From: Paracoccus sp. (in: a-proteobacteria)
GTDB taxonomy: Bacteria; Pseudomonadota; Alphaproteobacteria; Rhodobacterales; Rhodobacteraceae
Direction of reading: 5' to 3'
Length of the DNA: 64,000 bases
Assembly (NCBI RefSeq): GCF_030538495.1
Contig: NZ_JAUNTW010000008.1
Location: 18,683 to 82,682, forward strand
Shown here: in pieces, positions 41,292 to 55,422 of the stretch
Layout of the letters: every line of letters begins with the position of its first letter
How positions within the stretch are numbered: the stretch's first letter is position 1
Program-made: the position numbers and the translations under genes
The notes under the pieces: model-generated
Told to the model about the DNA's origin: nothing
Database searches by the model: none
The model's input: only the letters and a program-made list of their open reading frames with translations

Positions 41292-41368
41292 GGACCCGTA
41301 GCTCAGCTGGATAGAGCACCAGACTACGAATCTGGGGGCCGGGCGTTCGAATCGCTCCGGGTCCGCCA
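41292..41368 (+). tRNA. tRNA-Arg (ACG)
   Basis: Acceptor GGACCCG (41292-41298) pairs with CGGGTCC (41358-41364), the D-arm is GCTCAGCTGGATAGAGC, the anticodon loop is CTACGAA with ACG, and the T-arm GGGCGTTCGAATCGCTC closes. CCA is encoded. Its 3' half (from 41320) is the attachment site of the element that follows. Its own terminator now seems to lie at the far end of that element. Confidence 0.97.
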
Positions 41369-41369
41369 T
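41320..41369 (+). repeat. attL: 50-bp direct repeat in tRNA-Arg
   Basis: This sequence, from the anticodon stem through the CCA end plus one base, is identical to 55373-55422. Identity stops at 41370, where the two flanks differ (T-rich against A-rich). Confidence 0.95.
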
Positions 41370-41383
41370 TTAATATCCAGACA

Positions 41384-42523
41384 TCATTGCGTTTTTTCAC
41401 TGCTCTGCTCCTTCCTCTGGGGGCCGGTTTGCAACTTGTTTGCAAAGGCGGTGGCCGGGCTGCTCTCGAAAGCCTGAATCGCGGCCCTCGAAAGCGCAGG
41501 CGTCATCGCCAGATACTTTTCTAGAATGCGGGTCGCCGATTGCAGCGTGTGCCCGGTGATCGATGCGATCTGGGGCACCTCGCAGCCAGCTTCGGCCAGC
41601 AAGGTGACCGCCGTGCCCCGCAGGTCATTGAAGCGCAGGAAGTGCGATTTTTCCTGCTGCGTAAGGGTCGCATAGTTCTGGGGACGCAGCCCGCAGGCGA
41701 TCATGTGGGCGGACCATTCCTTGCTCAGGGCTTTGTCGTTGGCGTCGGTAAACCACGGGCGCCCGTCCGCGCGCGTCAGGACGTTCTCGCCCTGCCGTGG
41801 CATTCCGTCCAGCATCTGCCGCAGGCTTCGCGAGGTGTGGATCGGGACTAGGACCTTGGTTTTCCGCTGGCGCAGGAGGATAGTCATGCCGGAATACTGC
41901 GACCATTCCAGTCGGATCAGATCGCCGTAACGCTGGCCAGTGTGCAGCGCCAGGATCATCGCGCGTTGCAGTTCTACCGGGGCATCGGCCATAAAGGTGG
42001 TGATGTCGCTGGCTGTCCAGATCTTCTCTGACCTGTCACCGGAATAGATACGCTCGAAGCCGCGCAGCGGATTGTCCTTGATACGCCCCTTCCGTGCCGC
42101 ATGGCTGAAGACGGCGGACAGCACGGAAAGCCGGTTGTCAGCCTCGCGCGGGCGCGTGCGGCCGATCTGCTCCTGATAGTCGAGAAACACGCCACGTACG
42201 CGCGGGCTGTCGAGCGCACGAAGCGGGAGCTTGCCAAACTTTTCGCCAAGCAGCAGGAGCATTCGCCTGTACTCCCGCTGCGTGCTGTCCTCTTTGCGCG
42301 AAAAGCCAAGGCTTCCCAGATAGTCGCGTATGAGAGCGTTGATGTTTGCTACATCCTTCGGGGCGATCCGCTCCGCCTCCGCAAAGGCAGCGATGAACTC
42401 GGGGTCACCGGGCCGTCCTGGCAGCGCCGCCCCGGTCGCCCGATGGTAGTGATAGACCCGCACGGAGCCGTTCGCGAGGCGCTTGCGAACAGTATTCACC
42501 CCTTTGATCTTGGCCTTAACCAT
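41384..42523 (-). CDS. int: tyrosine-type integrase
   Basis: The 379-residue protein has an SAM-like core-binding part (about 60-160) and a catalytic domain with R198 (HTGQRYGDLIRL), R302 in FNDLRGTA, H325 in TGHTLQ and nucleophile Y337 (EKYL). The first His of the HxxR box is Asn (N299), a known variation. The gene ends 15 bases from attL and probably catalyses insertion into tRNA-Arg. It is overlapped by eight bases by a small upstream gene. Confidence 0.95.
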   Translation of the reverse strand: MVKAKIKGVNTVRKRLANGSVRVYHYHRATGAALPGRPGDPEFIAAFAEAERIAPKDVANINALIRDYLGSLGFSRKEDSTQREYRRMLLLLGEKFGKLPLRALDSPRVRGVFLDYQEQIGRTRPREADNRLSVLSAVFSHAARKGRIKDNPLRGFERIYSGDRSEKIWTASDITTFMADAPVELQRAMILALHTGQRYGDLIRLEWSQYSGMTILLRQRKTKVLVPIHTSRSLRQMLDGMPRQGENVLTRADGRPWFTDANDKALSKEWSAHMIACGLRPQNYATLTQQEKSHFLRFNDLRGTAVTLLAEAGCEVPQIASITGHTLQSATRILEKYLAMTPALSRAAIQAFESSPATAFANKLQTGPQRKEQSSEKTQ

Positions 42524-43741: not shown

Positions 43742-43960
43742 TCAGATCTCCGAATCCGGTGTCACCAAATCGACATGGTTGACTCCAAGCGCCTGCGCCA
43801 GCTCGTAGAGCGTGATGACCGTCGGATTACGGCGACCTTGCTCCAGTCCGCTCAGGTACTGCTGGCTGAAGCCTGAACGCTCCTCCACCTGCTCCTGCGT
43901 CAGGCCTTTTTCCCGACGAAGGCGCGCGAAGTTCCGCCCGACCAGCTTACGCATATCCAT
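43742..43960 (-). CDS. small XRE-family repressor
   Basis: The 72-residue protein is almost only a helix-turn-helix: LRREKGLTQEQVEERSGFSQ, QYLSGLEQGRRNPTVITLY. It is divergent from the gene at 44042, with a 35-bp palindrome between them, so it likely represses from that operator. Such a repressor commonly controls excision or transfer genes. Confidence 0.88.
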   Translation of the reverse strand: MDMRKLVGRNFARLRREKGLTQEQVEERSGFSQQYLSGLEQGRRNPTVITLYELAQALGVNHVDLVTPDSEI

Positions 43961-44689: not shown

Positions 44690-44972
44690 ACTGTCCGCTG
44701 ACCGCCCCACATGGATTCCCGCTGGCCGAGCGTGAGACTTGCACCATCTTTGCCAGTCTTTGCCGCATTTATTGTTCCGCCAGCGCACCCTAACTTCGGA
44801 TGATTAGGCAGGCATCACGATATCACGGCCGCCCGAGCCGTTCTGTGCCGTTTCGCGGGCGGAAATCCGTGCAACGCAGTCTCTGTCTTACGGATTAGAT
44901 CACTTGGTTCTTGTCTTACGAAAAACCGTGAGCTAGGAAGAATACGTAGCGCGAACACACGGAGCACAGATT

Positions 44973-46229
44973 TTGGCACGCCCCCGAGCAGAACACCCGC
45001 GCAGCAAGGTCACCAACCTTCGCCTTACCGAGCAGGAGCGAGAGGCGTTCGAGGCCAAGGCCGACGAGTTGGGCCTTAGCAGCCTCAGCGAATACATCCG
45101 CTTTCTTCACGAAGCCTTTGCGGACAAGGAAACCGCCGAAGATGACATGCTGACCGATTATAGCAGGCAGTTTCCGGCATCAAAAATCCGCAATTTCCAC
45201 ACCACAAAGCACGGTAAAATTCTCTGGGGCGACTCCCGCTCGTTCCTCTTCAACAAGGCCAAACCCGAGAGTGTTGACCTGATCATGACCAGTCCCCCGT
45301 TCGGGCTGGTGCGCAAGAAAAGCTACGGCAACGAGGATGCCGACCAGTATTGCGACTGGTTCCGCTCCTTTGCCGAAGGCTTCAAGCGTGTCCTCAAGGA
45401 CAGCGGTAGCCTTGTCATCGACATTGGCGGCGCATGGGTGCCGGGTCAGCCGACCAGGAGCCTATATCACTTCAAGCTTCTGATCATGCTGGTTGAGGAG
45501 TTTGGCTTCCATCTTTGCCAGGAACATTACTGGTGGAACCCCTCAAAACTCCCCACGCCTGCCGAGTGGGTCAACGTCCGGCGCGTGCGGGTGAAGGATG
45601 CCGTCAACTGCGTTTGGTGGCTCTCTAAAACGCCTTATCCCAAGGCCAACAATAAGCGCGTGCTCCAGCCCTATAGCAAGTCAATGAAGCACTTGCTCAA
45701 GAACGGCTATGTGGCGAAGCTTCGCCCCTCAGGTCATGATATTTCCGAGAAGTTCTCGCGCGATAACGGCGGCTCGGTCCCACCGAACCTTCTGGCTATC
45801 GCCAATACCGAGTCAAACGGCCGGTATCAAGATCATTGCCGCGCGGAAAACATAGCGATCCACCCGGCGCGCTTCCCGGCGGCCCTGCCCGAATACTTTA
45901 TCCGTTTTCTCACCGACCCCGGTGACTATGTTGTCGATCCCTTCGGTGGGTCCTGCGTGACCGGGGCTGTTGCCGAAGCACTGGAACGCAAATGGACGTG
46001 CTGCGAGCTATCCGAAGAATATCTGATGGGCGGCAGGGCACGCTTCATACCCGAGGTCCAGCCGCTCGGCAAGCAGCGGGATGTCATCTATGAGATCGTC
46101 CCACCTTGCACGCAGCCTATTGCGGAAGAAAGCGCACCGCTCTTTGAGGATGGCGGCAGGTCGCGGCCCAAAACGCTCACGCCAGAAGGCGCTGTCTCAC
46201 CCACGCGCCAAGACCGCCAGATCGCATAG
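44973..46229 (+). CDS. ribbon-helix-helix / DNA methyltransferase fusion (beta class, N4-C/N6-A)
   Basis: The 418-residue protein starts (TTG 44973, with GGAG upstream) with a basic ribbon-helix-helix-like region (residues 1-50: KVTNLRLTEQEREAFEAKAD, LGLSSLSEYIRFL). It continues into an amino-methyltransferase with motif IV SPPF (S107-F110) before motif I DPFGGSG-like DPFGGSC (D322-C328), the order of beta-class enzymes. SPPF and TSPP suggest N4-cytosine or N6-adenine modification. It is convergent with and overlaps by 53 bases the nuclease gene, so it probably protects DNA from it. Confidence 0.88.
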   Translation: MARPRAEHPRSKVTNLRLTEQEREAFEAKADELGLSSLSEYIRFLHEAFADKETAEDDMLTDYSRQFPASKIRNFHTTKHGKILWGDSRSFLFNKAKPESVDLIMTSPPFGLVRKKSYGNEDADQYCDWFRSFAEGFKRVLKDSGSLVIDIGGAWVPGQPTRSLYHFKLLIMLVEEFGFHLCQEHYWWNPSKLPTPAEWVNVRRVRVKDAVNCVWWLSKTPYPKANNKRVLQPYSKSMKHLLKNGYVAKLRPSGHDISEKFSRDNGGSVPPNLLAIANTESNGRYQDHCRAENIAIHPARFPAALPEYFIRFLTDPGDYVVDPFGGSCVTGAVAEALERKWTCCELSEEYLMGGRARFIPEVQPLGKQRDVIYEIVPPCTQPIAEESAPLFEDGGRSRPKTLTPEGAVSPTRQDRQIA

Positions 46230-47406
46230 AAGCAAAATCAACGGCCAATGGTGTCGGGGCGCTATCATCGAGCAGCTCCGGCACTCCGGTATTCACCGCA
46301 ATAAGAGAGCGGCGGATAAGATCATCCATATCTCCGCCGCTGGCATAGCCTCGCGCATACCGGATGATCTGGCTCATGGCTTCGCGGAACCGCGTATCAG
46401 CGGTATCGCCGCCCTGGTGCTTGACCTCGATGACAGCCATGACCTTGTCCTTGTCCCGATCGACAAGGATGAGATCGGGACGCTCTGTGGATGAATACTT
46501 GCCGTAAGCGGCCAAGGCTTGCGAGATTTTTTGCTCGGAAGGCTCCGGCGCTGGCTGAGTATAGTGCGTCGTCACCTGTTGCCAATAGATCGCATAAGGA
46601 CCACAAGTCAGGATCGGAACTGATCCGCCGCCGCTCAGGATGCGCATTTTCATCGGGATGTCGGTGGCCTCAGAAAGCGCCAGCCCAACCCCTACGGCAA
46701 CGGCCAGTTCGAAGCGCCGCCAGATTTCTGCTGGGGCAATCAGTGTGCTCTGGATGATTTCGCAGATAGCGGACTCATAGCCCGATTCCATATCTGAGAG
46801 GACGCGGTATGCCGCGACCGCATGGCGGTACATGGCTTTTCGCGAGCGGGCGGCATCACGGGTCGCGCCTGGACCTGGCCGCCTAGCGGCAGAGGCGGAT
46901 TTAAGCGGCTCGCGCAGGGCATCCAGCCGCTTGATGGCGGCAAGCTCCGCCATCGCGGCCTCAACCAGGCTCCGGTAGCCGGATTCGGCGGGCTGCTCGT
47001 CTAGCAATCTACCGGCATGCAGCGAAGCATTGTGCACGACCCAGGCCACAAGCTGATTGGGGCCTGTATCAAAAGATCGCACCGGTTCATGCGCTACCAC
47101 GACCGAAGGAAGGCCGCTTCTCACGCGCAGCATAGCAGTCGCGCGGGCATCAATGCGCCCGCGCGCTATCGTATCATCGACCCGCTCCCTAAAGCTCAGC
47201 AGACTTTGGGCTTCATGCGGATGCCGAAGGACATACTGTGCGAATGAACGTACCGGCGCAGAGACAGCCCAATGGCTGCGCAGAAGATCAATGTCGCGCC
47301 GCACATCTATGGAAGGCGTAGATGTTGGCGCAAGAAGGCCGCTCCGAAAATAGCGAAGGAAAAGCCCCGCCGTATAATCGGTGATATCCTGCGCATCATC
47401 CGGCAT
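46177..47406 (-). CDS. PD-(D/E)xK nuclease, McrC-like partner of the AAA+ ATPase
   Basis: The 409-residue protein has a nuclease triad-like set in its last third: D311 (RPDLILVD) and E327/K329 (VIEVKH). This is the PD-(D/E)xK core found in McrC and many restriction subunits. The N-terminal 300 residues are mostly helical and not recognised. Its start overlaps the stop of the McrB-like gene by one base, so the two are translated together, as mcrB-mcrC are. Methylation state and specificity are not visible. Confidence 0.75.
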   Translation of the reverse strand: MPDDAQDITDYTAGLFLRYFRSGLLAPTSTPSIDVRRDIDLLRSHWAVSAPVRSFAQYVLRHPHEAQSLLSFRERVDDTIARGRIDARATAMLRVRSGLPSVVVAHEPVRSFDTGPNQLVAWVVHNASLHAGRLLDEQPAESGYRSLVEAAMAELAAIKRLDALREPLKSASAARRPGPGATRDAARSRKAMYRHAVAAYRVLSDMESGYESAICEIIQSTLIAPAEIWRRFELAVAVGVGLALSEATDIPMKMRILSGGGSVPILTCGPYAIYWQQVTTHYTQPAPEPSEQKISQALAAYGKYSSTERPDLILVDRDKDKVMAVIEVKHQGGDTADTRFREAMSQIIRYARGYASGGDMDDLIRRSLIAVNTGVPELLDDSAPTPLAVDFASMRSGGLGAWVRQRLLA

Positions 47407-49220
47407 CAGACTGCTACCGATTTCATCCGCTCGATAATGCGATCCCTATCATCGCCCTCAAGCGCGAAGGATTTGATGGCCACCTCGGTGAGTTTCTCGG
47501 CATCGCGGACTATAATCCCGTCCAGCATCGGCAGCAACACCATATCCACCGCGTCCAGCAGGGCCGTGCGCATCTCGGGCGAAGGTGCCTGGAAGAAATC
47601 GGGATTGTCCACCATAGCGCGGATCGCGGCCACCGCATCGAGGATCGGCGCTGAGCCGATGGGGCGAACCGTGTTGATCACCGCCCAGAATTCTCCCAAG
47701 GGGCAAGGCGCGCCCGCTGGTGGCGACGCCCATGCCGGGTCCTGCTTCTGGAAGTATTCCCGCATGAAGACTGTCGTATCTTTGGGGACATCGACATAGA
47801 CCCAGCCGAAACGCCGCGAGAGCGCATAAGACATCTGATAGAGCGACGCTTTGTCGATGGAGTTGATGGTTGCCAGCAAACGCCATGCGGGACCGGGCGC
47901 ATATTCATGCGGCTTGGGAAGGGCTTTGGGCTTCGGGAGGACAACAAACTGGGCGCTCTCTGGATCCTCGGCATCAATGCGGTATGGCAGCGACGTTTCC
48001 TGTCCGCTCAGCACCGTAAAGAGCGGGCCAATGACCTTGTCGATATCGCAGCGGTTCAGCTCGTCAATAATCAGCGGCCTGTCATAGTCGCGCAGCAACA
48101 CGCCCGGAAAGAACTTGATCGCGCCGCCGCCGACCGGCTGGTAGCCGCCGACAATATCCTGCGAACTCCAGTCCGCAGAGCCGGTAATCATTGTCCAGTG
48201 CACGCCTGTCAGCGCGGTTGCAACCCAGCGGGCCAGTGTCGTCTTTCCGGTCCCCGGCGGGCCGTAGAACATGATGTGCTGCTTGCCGGAATGAAGCGCT
48301 GCATTGATCTGCCGGTAAACGGCCGGATCGACGCCGATCAGCGTAGGCTCTTCCGGAATCCGGATCGTCGCGGGATCGACATAGGGAACGGCCTCGGACT
48401 CGTCATCCTCATCATCTTCCAGGTCGGCCGCGCCAGCGGCGGCAGCACCGGCGGGGAGCGCCAGCGGGGCAATCGGCGGGCCAGCCTGGACATAGGCCGC
48501 TTCCACGTCCTGGCGCAGGCGCTCCAGCTCTGCCTCTTTGGTTAGATCATAAACGGGGATGTTCCCGGCCGCGCCACCTATCGGCGTGATCTGGATCGCA
48601 GCCGCCATCGCATCGACAAGATCGCCATATGCCAGATTCACCACCTGACCTTGCAGTGTGACGGCGAGCGTCTCTGTCCGAGGATGAATGCCCAGAAGCC
48701 CGGCGAAGATATAGGGCTGGGGATGAGGGTGCTGGCCTTGCGGGCGATGGTTCATCGCGCCCGTTGCCGGATCGAACGCTGTAGGGTCCGCATTGCCGCC
48801 TTGCGCAATCGGGTCCCGGAAGTTGAAAAGGGCATGAACCTCCATGGCATCAAGTCTTTTGAACGCTCCGGGACCTTCTTCCAGCACGGGAAGGATGCGC
48901 ACCACCAGCGCAGCCTTGTTGCCCTGGCCTGTGCTCTGAAACCCAATGTTGGACATGCCCTGGTAAGCAGGTCTCGCCGTGACAGCCGCGCCGTCATAGC
49001 CAATCTGGAACAGCCAGCGTTGTGGCTTGCTCAGCGAGTGACCTGGAACGGCCCACTGACCGTTTGCTGGATTGATGGCGTGCTTGCCCTGAAGCTCGGC
49101 AAACTTGAAGCCGGACTGCGTGGGCTGGCCACCCCTCGCCCTGAGGAAGATCTTCAGCCAACTGATGAAATCACTATAGAGGGACTGGTCTGGCATTTTC
49201 CACGCTGCTTGCAGTTTCAT
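47406..49220 (-). CDS. McrB-like AAA+ ATPase
   Basis: The 604-residue protein has an N-terminal region of about 250 residues of unknown fold (probably the target-recognition part), an Asp/Glu-rich linker (EDDEDDESE), then an AAA+ domain with Walker A GPPGTGKTT (K326), Walker B IIDELNRCDID and the sensor/arginine-finger segment ATINSIDK…LSRRFGW. The DELNR type is that of McrB/MoxR ATPases. Together with the downstream nuclease it resembles a McrBC or LlaJI-like restriction complex. Start 49220 or the ATG at 49196. Confidence 0.8.
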   Translation of the reverse strand: MKLQAAWKMPDQSLYSDFISWLKIFLRARGGQPTQSGFKFAELQGKHAINPANGQWAVPGHSLSKPQRWLFQIGYDGAAVTARPAYQGMSNIGFQSTGQGNKAALVVRILPVLEEGPGAFKRLDAMEVHALFNFRDPIAQGGNADPTAFDPATGAMNHRPQGQHPHPQPYIFAGLLGIHPRTETLAVTLQGQVVNLAYGDLVDAMAAAIQITPIGGAAGNIPVYDLTKEAELERLRQDVEAAYVQAGPPIAPLALPAGAAAAGAADLEDDEDDESEAVPYVDPATIRIPEEPTLIGVDPAVYRQINAALHSGKQHIMFYGPPGTGKTTLARWVATALTGVHWTMITGSADWSSQDIVGGYQPVGGGAIKFFPGVLLRDYDRPLIIDELNRCDIDKVIGPLFTVLSGQETSLPYRIDAEDPESAQFVVLPKPKALPKPHEYAPGPAWRLLATINSIDKASLYQMSYALSRRFGWVYVDVPKDTTVFMREYFQKQDPAWASPPAGAPCPLGEFWAVINTVRPIGSAPILDAVAAIRAMVDNPDFFQAPSPEMRTALLDAVDMVLLPMLDGIIVRDAEKLTEVAIKSFALEGDDRDRIIERMKSVAV

Positions 49221-49497
49221 TCACGGCAGGAATCTTCTCGCCTTACCGCACGGTAGATGCAAGCAAATCAGAAAGATACCTGCCGAGGCTTGTCTTCCGC
49301 CAGCTCCCCTCCTTTCTGTCAGTGTCACGCCATTTACAGAAATCCTGTCTGTCGCGCTGGCCTCATCTGACCCGCCTTACTGCGACCCGAGCGCTGCGCA
49401 GGTCGCCCCCCGGACCGTGTTAGCTTCAGCCTGTACAAAGGGCCGCCAGACGTGATCTAATCGGCGGCGAAACTGATTGATCACAGGGATGTAGGGA

Positions 49498-52143
49498 TTG
49501 AGCGAGGCACTTCAGAAACTCTTCGAGCAAGGCGTGCAGTGGGTAAGGGCAGATTTTCACCTGCATACGCGGGCAGATAAGGAGTTTCGCTATGACGGCG
49601 ATGCCAGCCGCTTCGTCCCCAGCTATGTTGAGGCGCTGGAGGCTGCCGGAACGCGCCTTGCCGTCATTACCAACCACAACAAATTTGACCTGGAAGAATT
49701 CAAGGCGCTGCGCAAACGAGCGCGCAAGTCCGGCATCGGCGTGCTTCCTGGCGTAGAGCTATCGGTCAAGGACGGCGCGAACGGCGTCCACACCCTTGTT
49801 GTTTTCTCCGAGGCCTGGCTGGCCGAGGGGCAGGATTATATCAACCAGTTTCTTGGCGTAGCCTTCGCTGGCAAGGTTCGCGCGCAATACGAACACGAGA
49901 ACGGACGCAGCAATGATGACCTGATCGAGACACTAAAGAAGCTGGAATCCTATAACCGCGACTTCTTCATCATTTTTGCGCATGTCGAGGCCAATAGCGG
50001 CCTTTGGAAGGAGATGAGCGGCGGACGGATGGGTGAGCTTGCCGCCGAGCCGCTTATCCAGAAATACGCCCTTGGCTTCCAGAAGGTCCGCACCCATGAC
50101 AAGCCCCATGGTGTATGCCGCACCAAAGTCAAGGGCTGGTGGGGCGATTACTATCCGGCCGAAGTAGAAGGCTCTGACGCAAAGGAAATCGCGGAAATTG
50201 GCAAGGGGGAGAAGGTCTATCTCAAGCTTGGCGATGTCGGATTTGATGCGGTAAAATTTGCCCTGACCGATCATACCTTCCGCGTTGCGCCGGATATTCC
50301 GGCCGTGGGTCATTCCCACATCAACGCCGTTCGCTTTGAAGGCGGGCTGCTGGACGGCGAGCGCGTCACCTTCTCCCCGCACCTGAATTGCCTGATCGGC
50401 ATCCAAGGCAGCGGAAAGTCCTCGATTCTAGAAAGCGTGCGCTACGCGCTCGATATTCCGTTCGGAGAAAAGGCGCAGGACAAGGAATATAAGGACAAGC
50501 TGTTACCCCATGTCCTTAAGAGTGGCGGGAAGGTGATTGTCGAGGCGACCGACCGGCATGGCGGACGCTTCGAGGTGAGCCGTATCTTGGGACATTTGCC
50601 GGATGTTTACGTTGATGACGTGCTGCGCCCCGGTGTCTCCATCAAGGAGACGATTATCGCCAAGCCACTTTACTTCGGACAGAAGGACCTCTCGGCCGCT
50701 GGGAAAGGCTTCGGGCACGATCTTGTCGAAAAGCTCATGGGTGATAGCCTCAAGGCTGTGCGGCAAAAGATCGAGGAACGCGCGGGCGAGCTAAAGACGG
50801 CAATAGAAAGCTTCGATGCCGTTCGCAGCGATGCCGAGGACAAGCAATCGCTGGAAGGTGAGCTCAAGGATGTTGAGTTCAACTTGGAGCATTTCGACAA
50901 GCACGGCATCAAGGATAAGCTTGAAAAGCAACTGGCCTATAGCGAGGACCTGACCTATTGCCAAGGCGTCGACGAAGCGGCTGAAGGCTGGCGCAAGACG
51001 ATTGATGATGCGGCGAGCCACGCCGAGGAAGATTTCAAGCTGATCGAGGCCCATGCCTCCGATCACAACGCCGATTTCTTCACGCGCTATGCGGCCAAGG
51101 TGGAAGAGATGAAAGAGACCGTTGCTAGCGCCAAAGCCCTTGCGGCCACCATCAAATCAAAATCCGGTGATCTGGGCGTGCTGCGCCAGGAGCTTGAAGG
51201 CGTGCGCGATAGCCTGAAGGAAGAATTTGCCGAGACCGAGCGGGATCTCGTCAAGGCGCTTGAAGAGCAAGGCGTTACCTCTATCCAGCCGGATGCCTAT
51301 ATCAAGCTAACGCAGCGTAAGCAGGAGCTTGAAGCTGAAATCGCAGAGCTTGCCAAGCGTACGGGTAAAGAGAAATCCAGGCTCGATGCACTCATGACCA
51401 CCATGACATCGCTGAATGATGCGTGGCATGATGAGTTCAAGCTCATCGCGGCGGCGCTGAAAATCATCAATGAATCGCAGGGGGCGCTGAAAGTAGAGGC
51501 TGAGTTCAAGGGAGACCGTAGCGCCTTCAAAGGCCATATTGAAGCGTTGCTTCGCGGCAATAACCTTCGCAGAGAATATTATGAGGCGCTCGCCGAGGCC
51601 TATACAGATTTTGCCGAGATCTTCAAAGACCTCGAAAAAGCCTCTGCTCACACAAAGGGAAAATCTGAGGATTTCAAAAAGCTATTCATGGCGAACCTCT
51701 ATGCGCTCACCGCTTATCAGGTGCCCAACAGCTATGCGGTGACATATCACGGGAAGGCGCTCTCATCGCATTCTCTTGGGCAACGCGCCTCTGCGATGAT
51801 GCTCTTCCTGCTGAGTCAAAAGGGGAATGATCTCCTGCTCATCGACCAGCCGGAGGATGATCTCGACAGCCAGACTGTCTATGAGGAGGTGGTCAAACTG
51901 CTTCGGCGGCTCAAGCCGAACCAGCAATTCATCTTCGCAACGCATAATGCAAATTTTCCGGTGTTGGGCGATGCCGAGACTATCACAACATGCAGCGCCA
52001 GCGATGATGAAATCGTCATATCGGTTGGTAACATCGACGATAAGGCCTGTCAGGCGAATGTCATCTCCATCATGGAGGGAGGCCCGGAGGCATTTGAACG
52101 GCGTAAGGCGATCTATCAAATTTGGAAAGCCCGTGTTGTTTGA
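49498..52143 (+). CDS. PHP phosphoesterase fused to SMC/RecF-like ATPase (TrlF-type architecture)
   Basis: The 881-residue protein starts at TTG 49498. Residues 15-300 form a PHP domain: H21/H23 in DFHLHT, VITNHN, PGVELSV, IFAHVEA and VGHSH. An ABC/SMC ATPase follows: Walker A GIQGSGKSS (K307), a long coiled coil (about 420-660), signature SLGQRASA, Walker B LLLIDQPEDDLD (D783-D788) and the switch THNANF. This matches, from memory, a family labelled TrlF AAA-like ATPase, of defence-like but unclear function. It is divergent from the McrB-like gene. Confidence 0.82.
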   Translation: MSEALQKLFEQGVQWVRADFHLHTRADKEFRYDGDASRFVPSYVEALEAAGTRLAVITNHNKFDLEEFKALRKRARKSGIGVLPGVELSVKDGANGVHTLVVFSEAWLAEGQDYINQFLGVAFAGKVRAQYEHENGRSNDDLIETLKKLESYNRDFFIIFAHVEANSGLWKEMSGGRMGELAAEPLIQKYALGFQKVRTHDKPHGVCRTKVKGWWGDYYPAEVEGSDAKEIAEIGKGEKVYLKLGDVGFDAVKFALTDHTFRVAPDIPAVGHSHINAVRFEGGLLDGERVTFSPHLNCLIGIQGSGKSSILESVRYALDIPFGEKAQDKEYKDKLLPHVLKSGGKVIVEATDRHGGRFEVSRILGHLPDVYVDDVLRPGVSIKETIIAKPLYFGQKDLSAAGKGFGHDLVEKLMGDSLKAVRQKIEERAGELKTAIESFDAVRSDAEDKQSLEGELKDVEFNLEHFDKHGIKDKLEKQLAYSEDLTYCQGVDEAAEGWRKTIDDAASHAEEDFKLIEAHASDHNADFFTRYAAKVEEMKETVASAKALAATIKSKSGDLGVLRQELEGVRDSLKEEFAETERDLVKALEEQGVTSIQPDAYIKLTQRKQELEAEIAELAKRTGKEKSRLDALMTTMTSLNDAWHDEFKLIAAALKIINESQGALKVEAEFKGDRSAFKGHIEALLRGNNLRREYYEALAEAYTDFAEIFKDLEKASAHTKGKSEDFKKLFMANLYALTAYQVPNSYAVTYHGKALSSHSLGQRASAMMLFLLSQKGNDLLLIDQPEDDLDSQTVYEEVVKLLRRLKPNQQFIFATHNANFPVLGDAETITTCSASDDEIVISVGNIDDKACQANVISIMEGGPEAFERRKAIYQIWKARVV

Positions 52144-52205: not shown

Positions 52206-53813
52206 CTACGGCATTTTTGACAGGTGATGAACGGCGTCCTGTAATTTCTGCCTTTCCTCGGCAGGCATTGACATAATGATGTCTATTTGTTTTGGGCGAA
52301 CCGCCGCCTCCTCAGATAGTTCTGTCGCGACAGCAGCGATTAGATCCTGTGAGCCATTTGGCCTATCGCCGCGTAGATTTCGCTCCTGCCGCCACGCCGT
52401 CAGCGCACGCGCTGCCCGATTGTCCATGCCTGTCAGTTGGGTCCACAGCGCCCTTGCCGTCGAATATAATCGAGTGTGTATCGCCTTTCCCGCAGCCGCC
52501 CTCCACGCGGGATCGCCAAGAAATTCTCCTGCGTATTCTTGCAATCTCTCTAAGCGCGGGTTGGGCCCGGAATTACCCCCTTGCCCGTAAACCCACCGTC
52601 TGGCAGCGTCGAGGAAATCAGGAATCTGCGCCTCCACTTGCTCCATATGTCGCTGCCAGACCTCGGCTGCTGCGCGGAGTGGCGCAAGGGAACGTCGCAA
52701 CGCCCGTGCTTCCTGAATAAGCGCGGTCGCCTGCTGAGCTTTTTCGTCGACCTCGCGCAATCGCCTCGCCGACGCCACCTCTTGCTCCTCAAGTTTTTCA
52801 AGGCGACTGGCCGCAGCGGCTTCCTGTCGCTGGAGATCGGCAAGGCGCATTTCGGCTTCTCGTGATCGTGCCTTTGCAGCCGCCTCGATGGTATGGGCCC
52901 GGAACCTGGCTCTGGTAGCTTTCTTCAGTGCAGCCTGTCCGGCCCGCATCTCGGCTTCCAACTTCTCAAGCTCGCTTTTGGCTTGGTCGGCACGACTGAG
53001 GTAGCGCGCGAGCGTTTTGTGGCTAGCGTCAAGGTGCTCGCCTTTCTTTTCGGCCGCAACTCGTAGCCGATCCGCCAATCTAAGGTTCTTCTGCAACCTT
53101 GTCCGCGCTGCCTCGATGCGATTCAGCAGTTCGGCCAGTTCCTCAGGCAGATCCTCATGCAACTGCCGCACGGATCGGTTGATCGTGTCGGCAAGCTTGG
53201 CGCCGGCCGCCAACCTGTCGCGCTTTCGGTGGCCCCGTTCGATCCGGGGCTCATATTTCCGCCCGACCTCGGCTGCGAGGTCCTGCAAGGCGTTCAGGAC
53301 AGATTTGGTTGCGACCTTGGAAACCGGCCGCCCGTCCCTCGTCACAGCCGCCATTTGATAATGCGCATGAATCGCGCTTTCATCGAGATGGACGACGAGC
53401 CCATGCAAGCTGGTGCCAAGCCGATCCGCGACAGCCGTTGCCACCCCAAGAAACAGCGCATTCTGATCAGCGGCGGGCATGGCCTCAACCCAATGCTGCG
53501 CCTCGTGCCCAAATGTGATGATGCCGACCGTCGAAACTGCGGCGCTGTCGCTGACACGGCGCTGCCGAATGCGACCGGATTCGTTCCGGCGGTCGTCGCA
53601 GATGCGACGCATCTCGCCGCCGGAGAGTGGGGCGACGATGACGCGGTTAAGCTGGCTACGGTCGTGGTCAACGTATTTCGGCTGCCGGCCGATGCGCAGA
53701 TCATGCTGTCGCTGCCCATTGGTTTGCACGCGAGCCTTGCTTTTGATCCGGGTCGAGATGGCGCGGGGATTGGCCTTGCTTGCCGGTGGCGCAGGGTGGG
53801 AGGATTGTTCCAT
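52206..53813 (-). CDS. MobV/Pre-family relaxase
   Basis: About 535 residues. Residues 1-170 hold the MobV relaxase: KYVDHDRSQLNRV near residue 50 and the metal/catalytic motif VVHLDESAIHAHYQ (HLDE-x3-H-x-H). The rest is a long Ala/Arg/Glu coiled-coil tail. It nicks an oriT and would mobilise the element with helper conjugation. ATG 53813 follows AGGTGG; GTG 53822 is alternative. A strong inverted repeat lies just upstream. Confidence 0.85.
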   Translation of the reverse strand: MEQSSHPAPPASKANPRAISTRIKSKARVQTNGQRQHDLRIGRQPKYVDHDRSQLNRVIVAPLSGGEMRRICDDRRNESGRIRQRRVSDSAAVSTVGIITFGHEAQHWVEAMPAADQNALFLGVATAVADRLGTSLHGLVVHLDESAIHAHYQMAAVTRDGRPVSKVATKSVLNALQDLAAEVGRKYEPRIERGHRKRDRLAAGAKLADTINRSVRQLHEDLPEELAELLNRIEAARTRLQKNLRLADRLRVAAEKKGEHLDASHKTLARYLSRADQAKSELEKLEAEMRAGQAALKKATRARFRAHTIEAAAKARSREAEMRLADLQRQEAAAASRLEKLEEQEVASARRLREVDEKAQQATALIQEARALRRSLAPLRAAAEVWQRHMEQVEAQIPDFLDAARRWVYGQGGNSGPNPRLERLQEYAGEFLGDPAWRAAAGKAIHTRLYSTARALWTQLTGMDNRAARALTAWRQERNLRGDRPNGSQDLIAAVATELSEEAAVRPKQIDIIMSMPAEERQKLQDAVHHLSKMP

Positions 53814-53832
53814 GCTCGCCACCTGCGGTTTA

Positions 53833-55372: not shown

Positions 55373-55422
55373 CAGACTACGAATCTGGGGGCCGGGCGTT
55401 CGAATCGCTCCGGGTCCGCCAT
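55373..55422 (+). repeat. attR: tRNA-Arg 3' fragment
   Basis: Fifty bases identical to 41320-41369 (anticodon stem to CCA plus one base). It lacks the 5' half of a tRNA, so it is not a functional gene. It defines the right end of the element. Confidence 0.95.

Follow-up and report, generated by a model that had tools for sequence, protein, structure and literature searches.

We analysed a 64,000-nt stretch of a Paracoccus sp. contig (NZ_JAUNTW010000008.1, positions 18,683–82,682; hereafter the window, in whose coordinates features are given) and found that three adjacent genes of a mobile element in it probably form one mobile Type II restriction-modification system, similar to LlaJI and PcaRCI, with protection of the N4-methylcytosine (m4C) type and a methyltransferase that represses its own gene. 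The genes encode an McrB-type AAA+ ATPase (A; 47406–49220, reverse strand), a predicted PD-(D/E)xK nuclease subunit (N; 46177–47406, reverse strand) and a methyltransferase with an N-terminal ribbon-helix-helix (RHH) domain (M; 44973–46229, forward strand, TTG start). The initial annotation had combined them with a fourth gene, encoding a PHP-SMC ATPase (49498–52143, forward strand), into a candidate defence cassette carried by a mobile element. All four open reading frames are present at these positions, and the part of the proposal that joins A, N and M is borne out by their recurrence, while the fourth gene separates from them.

A and N lie on the same strand with a 1-nt overlap, the stop codon of A and the start codon of N sharing the sequence TGATG, and M is convergent to the pair, its tail overlapping that of N by 53 bp. 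The arrangement A>N>|<M is shared by 37 other loci on plasmids, IMG/VR contigs and genomes, mostly of Alphaproteobacteria; some of these loci are near-identical or partial, and order was read where the contig was long enough. In the 26 loci measured besides the window, the tails of M and N overlap in 13, are separated by 6–102 bp in nine and by 402 bp in four. Searches recovered N from 2 of 101 genomes of relatives and 2 of 385 genomes of the class, each pair including the genome of the window itself, as well as from 2 plasmid records, 6 viral contigs and 21 loci of assembled genome contigs, with no match in named phage genomes; M adjoins it in 19 of these 21 genome loci and 4 of these 6 viral loci. 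Among the 38 loci including the window, 32 have a full-length N, and M is present in all 32. M was not seen at L008, L010, L027 and L031, in all of which N is truncated; L031 ends ~50 bp past the N frame and so says nothing on M there. Part of this set is redundant: L002, L005 and L017 are one sequence (L002 being identical over 4,209 bp to L017, from Paracoccus aeridis), and L010, L016, L027, L029 and L031 are 92–98% identical to L017 where aligned. Across 19 loci, the three genes gave pairwise distances that correlate with one another at 0.94–0.97. Such co-inheritance of A-N with M is the pattern expected if A-N were harmful without M, and, as the initial annotation had supposed, this evolutionary behaviour favours a LlaJI-like unit over a Type IV system. 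Where the gap is 402 bp, a small open reading frame lies between M and N (L017:4333–4761); it appears GIY-YIG-like by eye and has no Pfam match.

The TTG start of M lines up with residue 1 of its relatives. Residues 9–43 matched the Pfam NikA-like family (32.7 bits, cut-off 27) when the N-terminal 76 residues were searched, and M further matched Pfam N6_N4_Mtase and PADLOC MTase_II (E = 3.6e-115), with TSPPF preceding DPFGGS, the order of the beta class; a beta-class methyltransferase with an N-terminal RHH region, as first proposed, is what the gene encodes by these matches. The relationship of M to M.PvuII and the promoter boxes described below were absent from that proposal. Residues 75–361 of M (~287 residues) align with M.PvuII (PDB 1boo, E = 5e-104), an enzyme that the PDB lists as an N-4 cytosine methyltransferase. 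The target of M.PvuII is CAGCTG, and the product of M is probably N4-methylcytosine at CAGCTG.

In a tree of the methyltransferase domain alone, comprising 28 sequences with RHH and 10 without and rooted on L048, the RHH methyltransferases form a single clade (support 0.918). M matched at E < 1e-60 in 9 of the 385 class genomes; RHH is present in two, exactly the two with N, of the other seven, six align solely from residue 68–83 onward and one (G436) is too fragmented to judge. A search of viral contigs by M gave 11 loci, 10 with RHH and all 10 of these with N, although L055 and L057 have kept M and lost A and part of N; four of the 10 contigs were already known from the N search. The eleventh locus (L060), in which M lacks RHH, has neither A nor N. 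Across these searches, RHH-bearing M was found only together with A-N. RHH-less relatives have other neighbours: L034 and L061 encode, one after another, an Mrr-type endonuclease, an RHH-less M and an HNH protein, L063 has an Mrr-type gene beside RHH-less M with no HNH gene shown, and L060 and L035 pair RHH-less M with an HNH gene (called by eye in L060).

Upstream of M are three YGTNNNACR boxes (44868–44876, 44884–44892 and 44912–44920) that make up a candidate RHH operator (44868–44920, forward strand), identified by recurrence of the box in promoters of RHH methyltransferases. The third box overlaps a −35-like hexamer, TTGTCT (44911–44916), followed 17 nt on by TAGGAA (44934–44939), an arrangement that suggests autorepression of M, and a consensus promoter scan did not flag a site at the M promoter. 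Conservation in the aligned upstream regions of M was mainly found in a ~60-bp block bounded by the upstream box and the −10 region. At least two boxes occurred in 24 of 24 RHH-methyltransferase promoters and in none of 22 A promoters, with a rate of 1.3% among 7,200 random stretches; the 24 leave out L002, which lies at a contig edge, and the near-identical copies L017, L026 and L029. At least two boxes were also present in five of six held-out RHH-methyltransferase promoters from loci found later, while promoters of RHH-less methyltransferases had paired boxes in none of seven cases and a single box in one. The boxes indicate a likely job for the RHH part of M, and we infer that it binds the paired boxes and represses M. 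That the same boxes might also control A and N was considered and rejected, given their absence as pairs from the A promoters. The A promoters of L024, L025 and L028, which belong to one sub-lineage, share a separate conserved element, GGGAATCCC, with a TTTTTG-CTAG stretch after it.

N is a predicted PD-(D/E)xK nuclease subunit on the basis of a motif read by eye (D311, E327-x-K329 and Q346xxRY350), in which D311, E327-x-K329 and Q346 do not vary across 22 aligned sequences; the motif is recognisable by eye in loci at 29–40% identity. Library searches with N gave no curated family match above cut-off, and a few N members had weak, sub-cut-off Pfam matches to VRR_NUC, XisH and PDDEXK_9. A carries the motifs GPPGTGKT and LIIDELNR and the NxxD motif in the form NSID, and matched Pfam AAA_5 (E = 2.7e-18), as did 21 of 21 A members; residues 312–492 aligned with E. 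coli McrB at an hhalign probability of 98.3. The translational coupling of a PD-(D/E)xK protein to a DELNR-type AAA+ ATPase that was noted at the outset is retained, in view of the TGATG overlap, the LIIDELNR motif and the invariant nuclease residues. Residues 1–300 of A had no Pfam match, and this N-terminal region of ~300 residues is likely to read DNA. In L054 (4625–7220), A is split into two overlapping frames, an N-terminal part with an extra upstream stretch and a separate motor part, which hints that the two parts are separable. Four plasmid-borne McrB-like ATPases, from Natribaculum, Paenarthrobacter, Priestia and Salinibacter (L066–L069), are likewise followed by a protein without a Pfam match. 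Compared with N, such partners gave probabilities of 87.1 (Natribaculum), 80.8 (Priestia) and 11.5 (Salinibacter), with one sequence each and as a lead only; the weak but lengthy similarity of two of the three points to a wider, unnamed partner family.

The general kind of system to which A, N and M would belong is known. Both LlaJI of Lactococcus lactis (PMC1459862) and PcaRCI of Pectobacterium carotovorum (PMC8989522) show that an McrBC-like pair can restrict unmodified DNA. LlaJI likewise comprises an McrB-like AAA+ specificity subunit and a PD-(D/E)xK subunit, both of which it needs, is plasmid-borne with its own methyltransferases and behaves in vivo as a restrictor of unmethylated DNA, but it has two 5-methylcytosine methyltransferases and four similarly oriented genes (PMC1459862) instead of one convergent M.PvuII-like enzyme with RHH. 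Its recognition is of the B3 type (PMC12707154), and N lacks a match to the LlaJI Pfam family. PcaRCI has McrB-like and McrC-like subunits, a cognate methyltransferase and a proposed mobility; its methyltransferase is Dcm-like, and the available part of the description mentions no RHH domain (PMC8989522). The features of this class that are present here are the McrB-type ATPase, the overlapping partner with a PD-(D/E)xK motif and the linked methyltransferase, while homology of the nuclease to McrC or LlaJI was not found. Type IV McrBC systems differ in that the present cassette has a linked methyltransferase. A census of CoCoNuT systems reports that NxxD and NxD McrB-like GTPases often adjoin methyltransferases (PMC11090510), a general link of the kind seen here, with specifics deferred to a later paper. 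In the PvuII system (pPvu1), M.PvuII aligns with M as described, but the PvuII endonuclease and its helix-turn-helix (HTH) regulator, the C protein, are in neither the window cassette nor the recurring order; A-N seem to replace the PvuII restriction enzyme, and the fused RHH seems to take the place of the C protein. The sister systems of L034 and L061 have an M that is ~59–64% identical and differ in having no RHH, no A-N and genes all in one direction.

Several observations weigh against a LlaJI/PcaRCI-like system with an autorepressed M. The box counts take no account of kinship among the loci, many of which are closely related; the six held-out loci represent about three lineages, with boxes partly at other positions, the boxes of L033 lie away from the usual positions, and L057 has one box alone. 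The spaced TGTNNNACR pair occurred once in the 2.67-Mb genome, at the M promoter, compared to two and four occurrences of reversed-pattern controls, which means that there is no second site but no enrichment either. Avoidance of CAGCTG was not special to the cassettes, with 12 sites seen vs. 19.5 expected in 22 pooled cassettes (3 of 25 left out as near-identical) and 62 vs. 104.8 in their flanks; the window element has 0 CAGCTG in 14,053 bp, with 2.6 expected. Since cassettes and flanks were depleted alike, site avoidance was dropped as proof of CAGCTG, nothing is claimed from it, and it lends the predicted site no support. None of the 22 N members matched the McrBC or LlaJI Pfam families (PF09563 in the case of LlaJI) at E up to 1, and N as an McrC homologue was rejected at an hhalign probability of 0.5 against E. 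coli McrC. In PDB searches with A, midasin came first and McrB next. Scanning for N relied on two short peptide patterns, which passed over divergent loci that M later brought to light, and any pair of A and N lacking M could therefore have escaped.

Two other explanations of these genes were considered. A-N might be a Type IV, modification-dependent nuclease directed at other modified bases, with M an independent fellow traveller, as could be argued from the McrB-type ATPase and from Natribaculum, where a distant AAA+ relative and its partner gene have no methyltransferase annotated within ~5 kb. We regard this as unlikely, as M accompanies every full-length N among the loci found, a truncated N being the one that may be without M, the distances of M, N and A match, and the RHH fusion and A-N coincide in one clade. 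Alternatively, the RHH could serve not as a repressor but in mobilization, as a NikA-like part that links the methyltransferase to the element's relaxosome, given that Pfam NikA-like is its best RHH match and that the element encodes a Mob_Pre protein. RHH methyltransferases are, however, also found in IMG/VR contigs, in a serine-recombinase unit on the P. aeridis contig and on a plasmid typed as non-mobilizable, and the paired boxes are located over the M promoter, all of which makes a mobilization role rather improbable.

That all four genes, including the one for the PHP-SMC protein, are one defence system is very improbable. The PHP-SMC protein scored 546.9 bits against the NCBI model of the TrlF family (NF045780, cut-off 350), and its 153.5 bits against the Ppl anti-phage model (NF042955) did not reach the cut-off of 1000. 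A trlF gene has been described in Photorhabdus (PMC7554251); the window protein is a member of NF045780. The gene starts 277 bp from A, and on an E. coli IncC plasmid (L038) a TrlF gene is located within a Type I restriction operon beside a Tn7-like transposition set, both of which could speak for a functional link. Against it, TrlF was present in 0 of the 37 other cassette loci within the sequence available around each. The 101 genomes of relatives yielded TrlF in 2, the window's own genome included. Three Sulfitobacter plasmids carry TrlF copies at 90.5% protein identity; the DNA match is limited to the TrlF gene, from 28 bp before it to 8 bp short of its end, and the Sulfitobacter plasmid examined has DUF4433 and macro-domain genes upstream of TrlF and no A, N or M annotated nearby. 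The suggestion that the PHP-SMC protein is a second effector or part of the same system is not upheld; rarity as neighbours elsewhere, which the initial annotation named as refuting its proposal, is seen for TrlF and not for A, N and M. By these comparisons the TrlF gene is neighbouring passenger cargo of a known family, outside the restriction cassette.

The mobile element around these genes, correctly recognised from the outset, is 14 kb long and has a 50-bp direct repeat at both ends (41320–41369 and 55373–55422), the first copy of which overlaps a tRNA-Arg gene (41292–41368). It encodes a tyrosine-type integrase (41384–42523, reverse strand; Pfam Phage_integrase) and a Mob_Pre/MobV-type relaxase (52206–53822, reverse strand), with a Pfam Mob_Pre match above cut-off and an NCBIfam MobV match below it. 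A 72-residue HTH regulator (43742–43960) is 78.6% identical to one on a cassette-bearing Novacetimonas plasmid, and short DNA matches to Shinella and Roseomonas plasmids occur near its gene. It was rejected as a C protein: the best E value for PADLOC control proteins was 2.4e-9, but other Cro/C1 HTH models matched too, and a relative above 60 bits was present at just one of 33 loci (L004). Elsewhere, the cassette is part of a ~7.5-kb unit (L017:988–8482) that also encodes a large serine recombinase and a small, by eye HTH-like protein and is 92–95% identical in P. aeridis (L017), Tabrizicola thermarum and a Halothiobacillus metagenome-assembled genome (MAG; the other loci being L016 and L029), and both alignments to L017 end at the same right end of the unit. 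Two cassette copies on one Pseudomonadales MAG contig (L021 and L026) are ~43 kb apart and 99.8% identical over 5.9 kb, suggesting a recent duplication or transposition.

From the gene set, its order and co-inheritance, the protein motifs and the promoter boxes, we infer how a mobile Type II system composed of A, N and M may operate. M would mark self DNA by methylation, most likely as N4-methylcytosine at CAGCTG or a closely related site. The McrB-type AAA+ ring of A would read an unmodified site through its N-terminal region, recruit N and move on DNA, with N cutting through its PD-(D/E)xK centre, which could provide defence against phages. The fused RHH would bind the paired boxes that cover the −35 of its own gene and repress M, such that in a new host M would be made first and strongly and afterwards held down. 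Mobile restriction systems that enter a new host face the known problem of holding back the nuclease relative to the methyltransferase (PMC3695507), and the complexity of the enzyme has been suggested to favour the methyltransferase during establishment in the case of PcaRCI (PMC8989522). Whether the cassette represents a separate Type II subtype, m4C-protected, with a motor-driven restriction enzyme and timing control inside the methyltransferase, in which one fusion gave a PvuII-type methyltransferase its RHH repressor on pairing with A-N and the switch replaces the PvuII C protein, we consider evenly balanced. New among the material searched are the M.PvuII-like methyltransferase, its built-in RHH, the convergent gene order and the nuclease without a family; searches of the open-licence PMC literature found no RHH methyltransferase with an McrBC-like pair, which is not proof of absence. 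M.PvuII-like enzymes pair with at least three different nuclease modules, a case of natural module swapping. M seems to have its repressor built in, acting on a short operator open to direct assay, and, if this is true, the fused RHH switch would let the cassette establish safely in new hosts.

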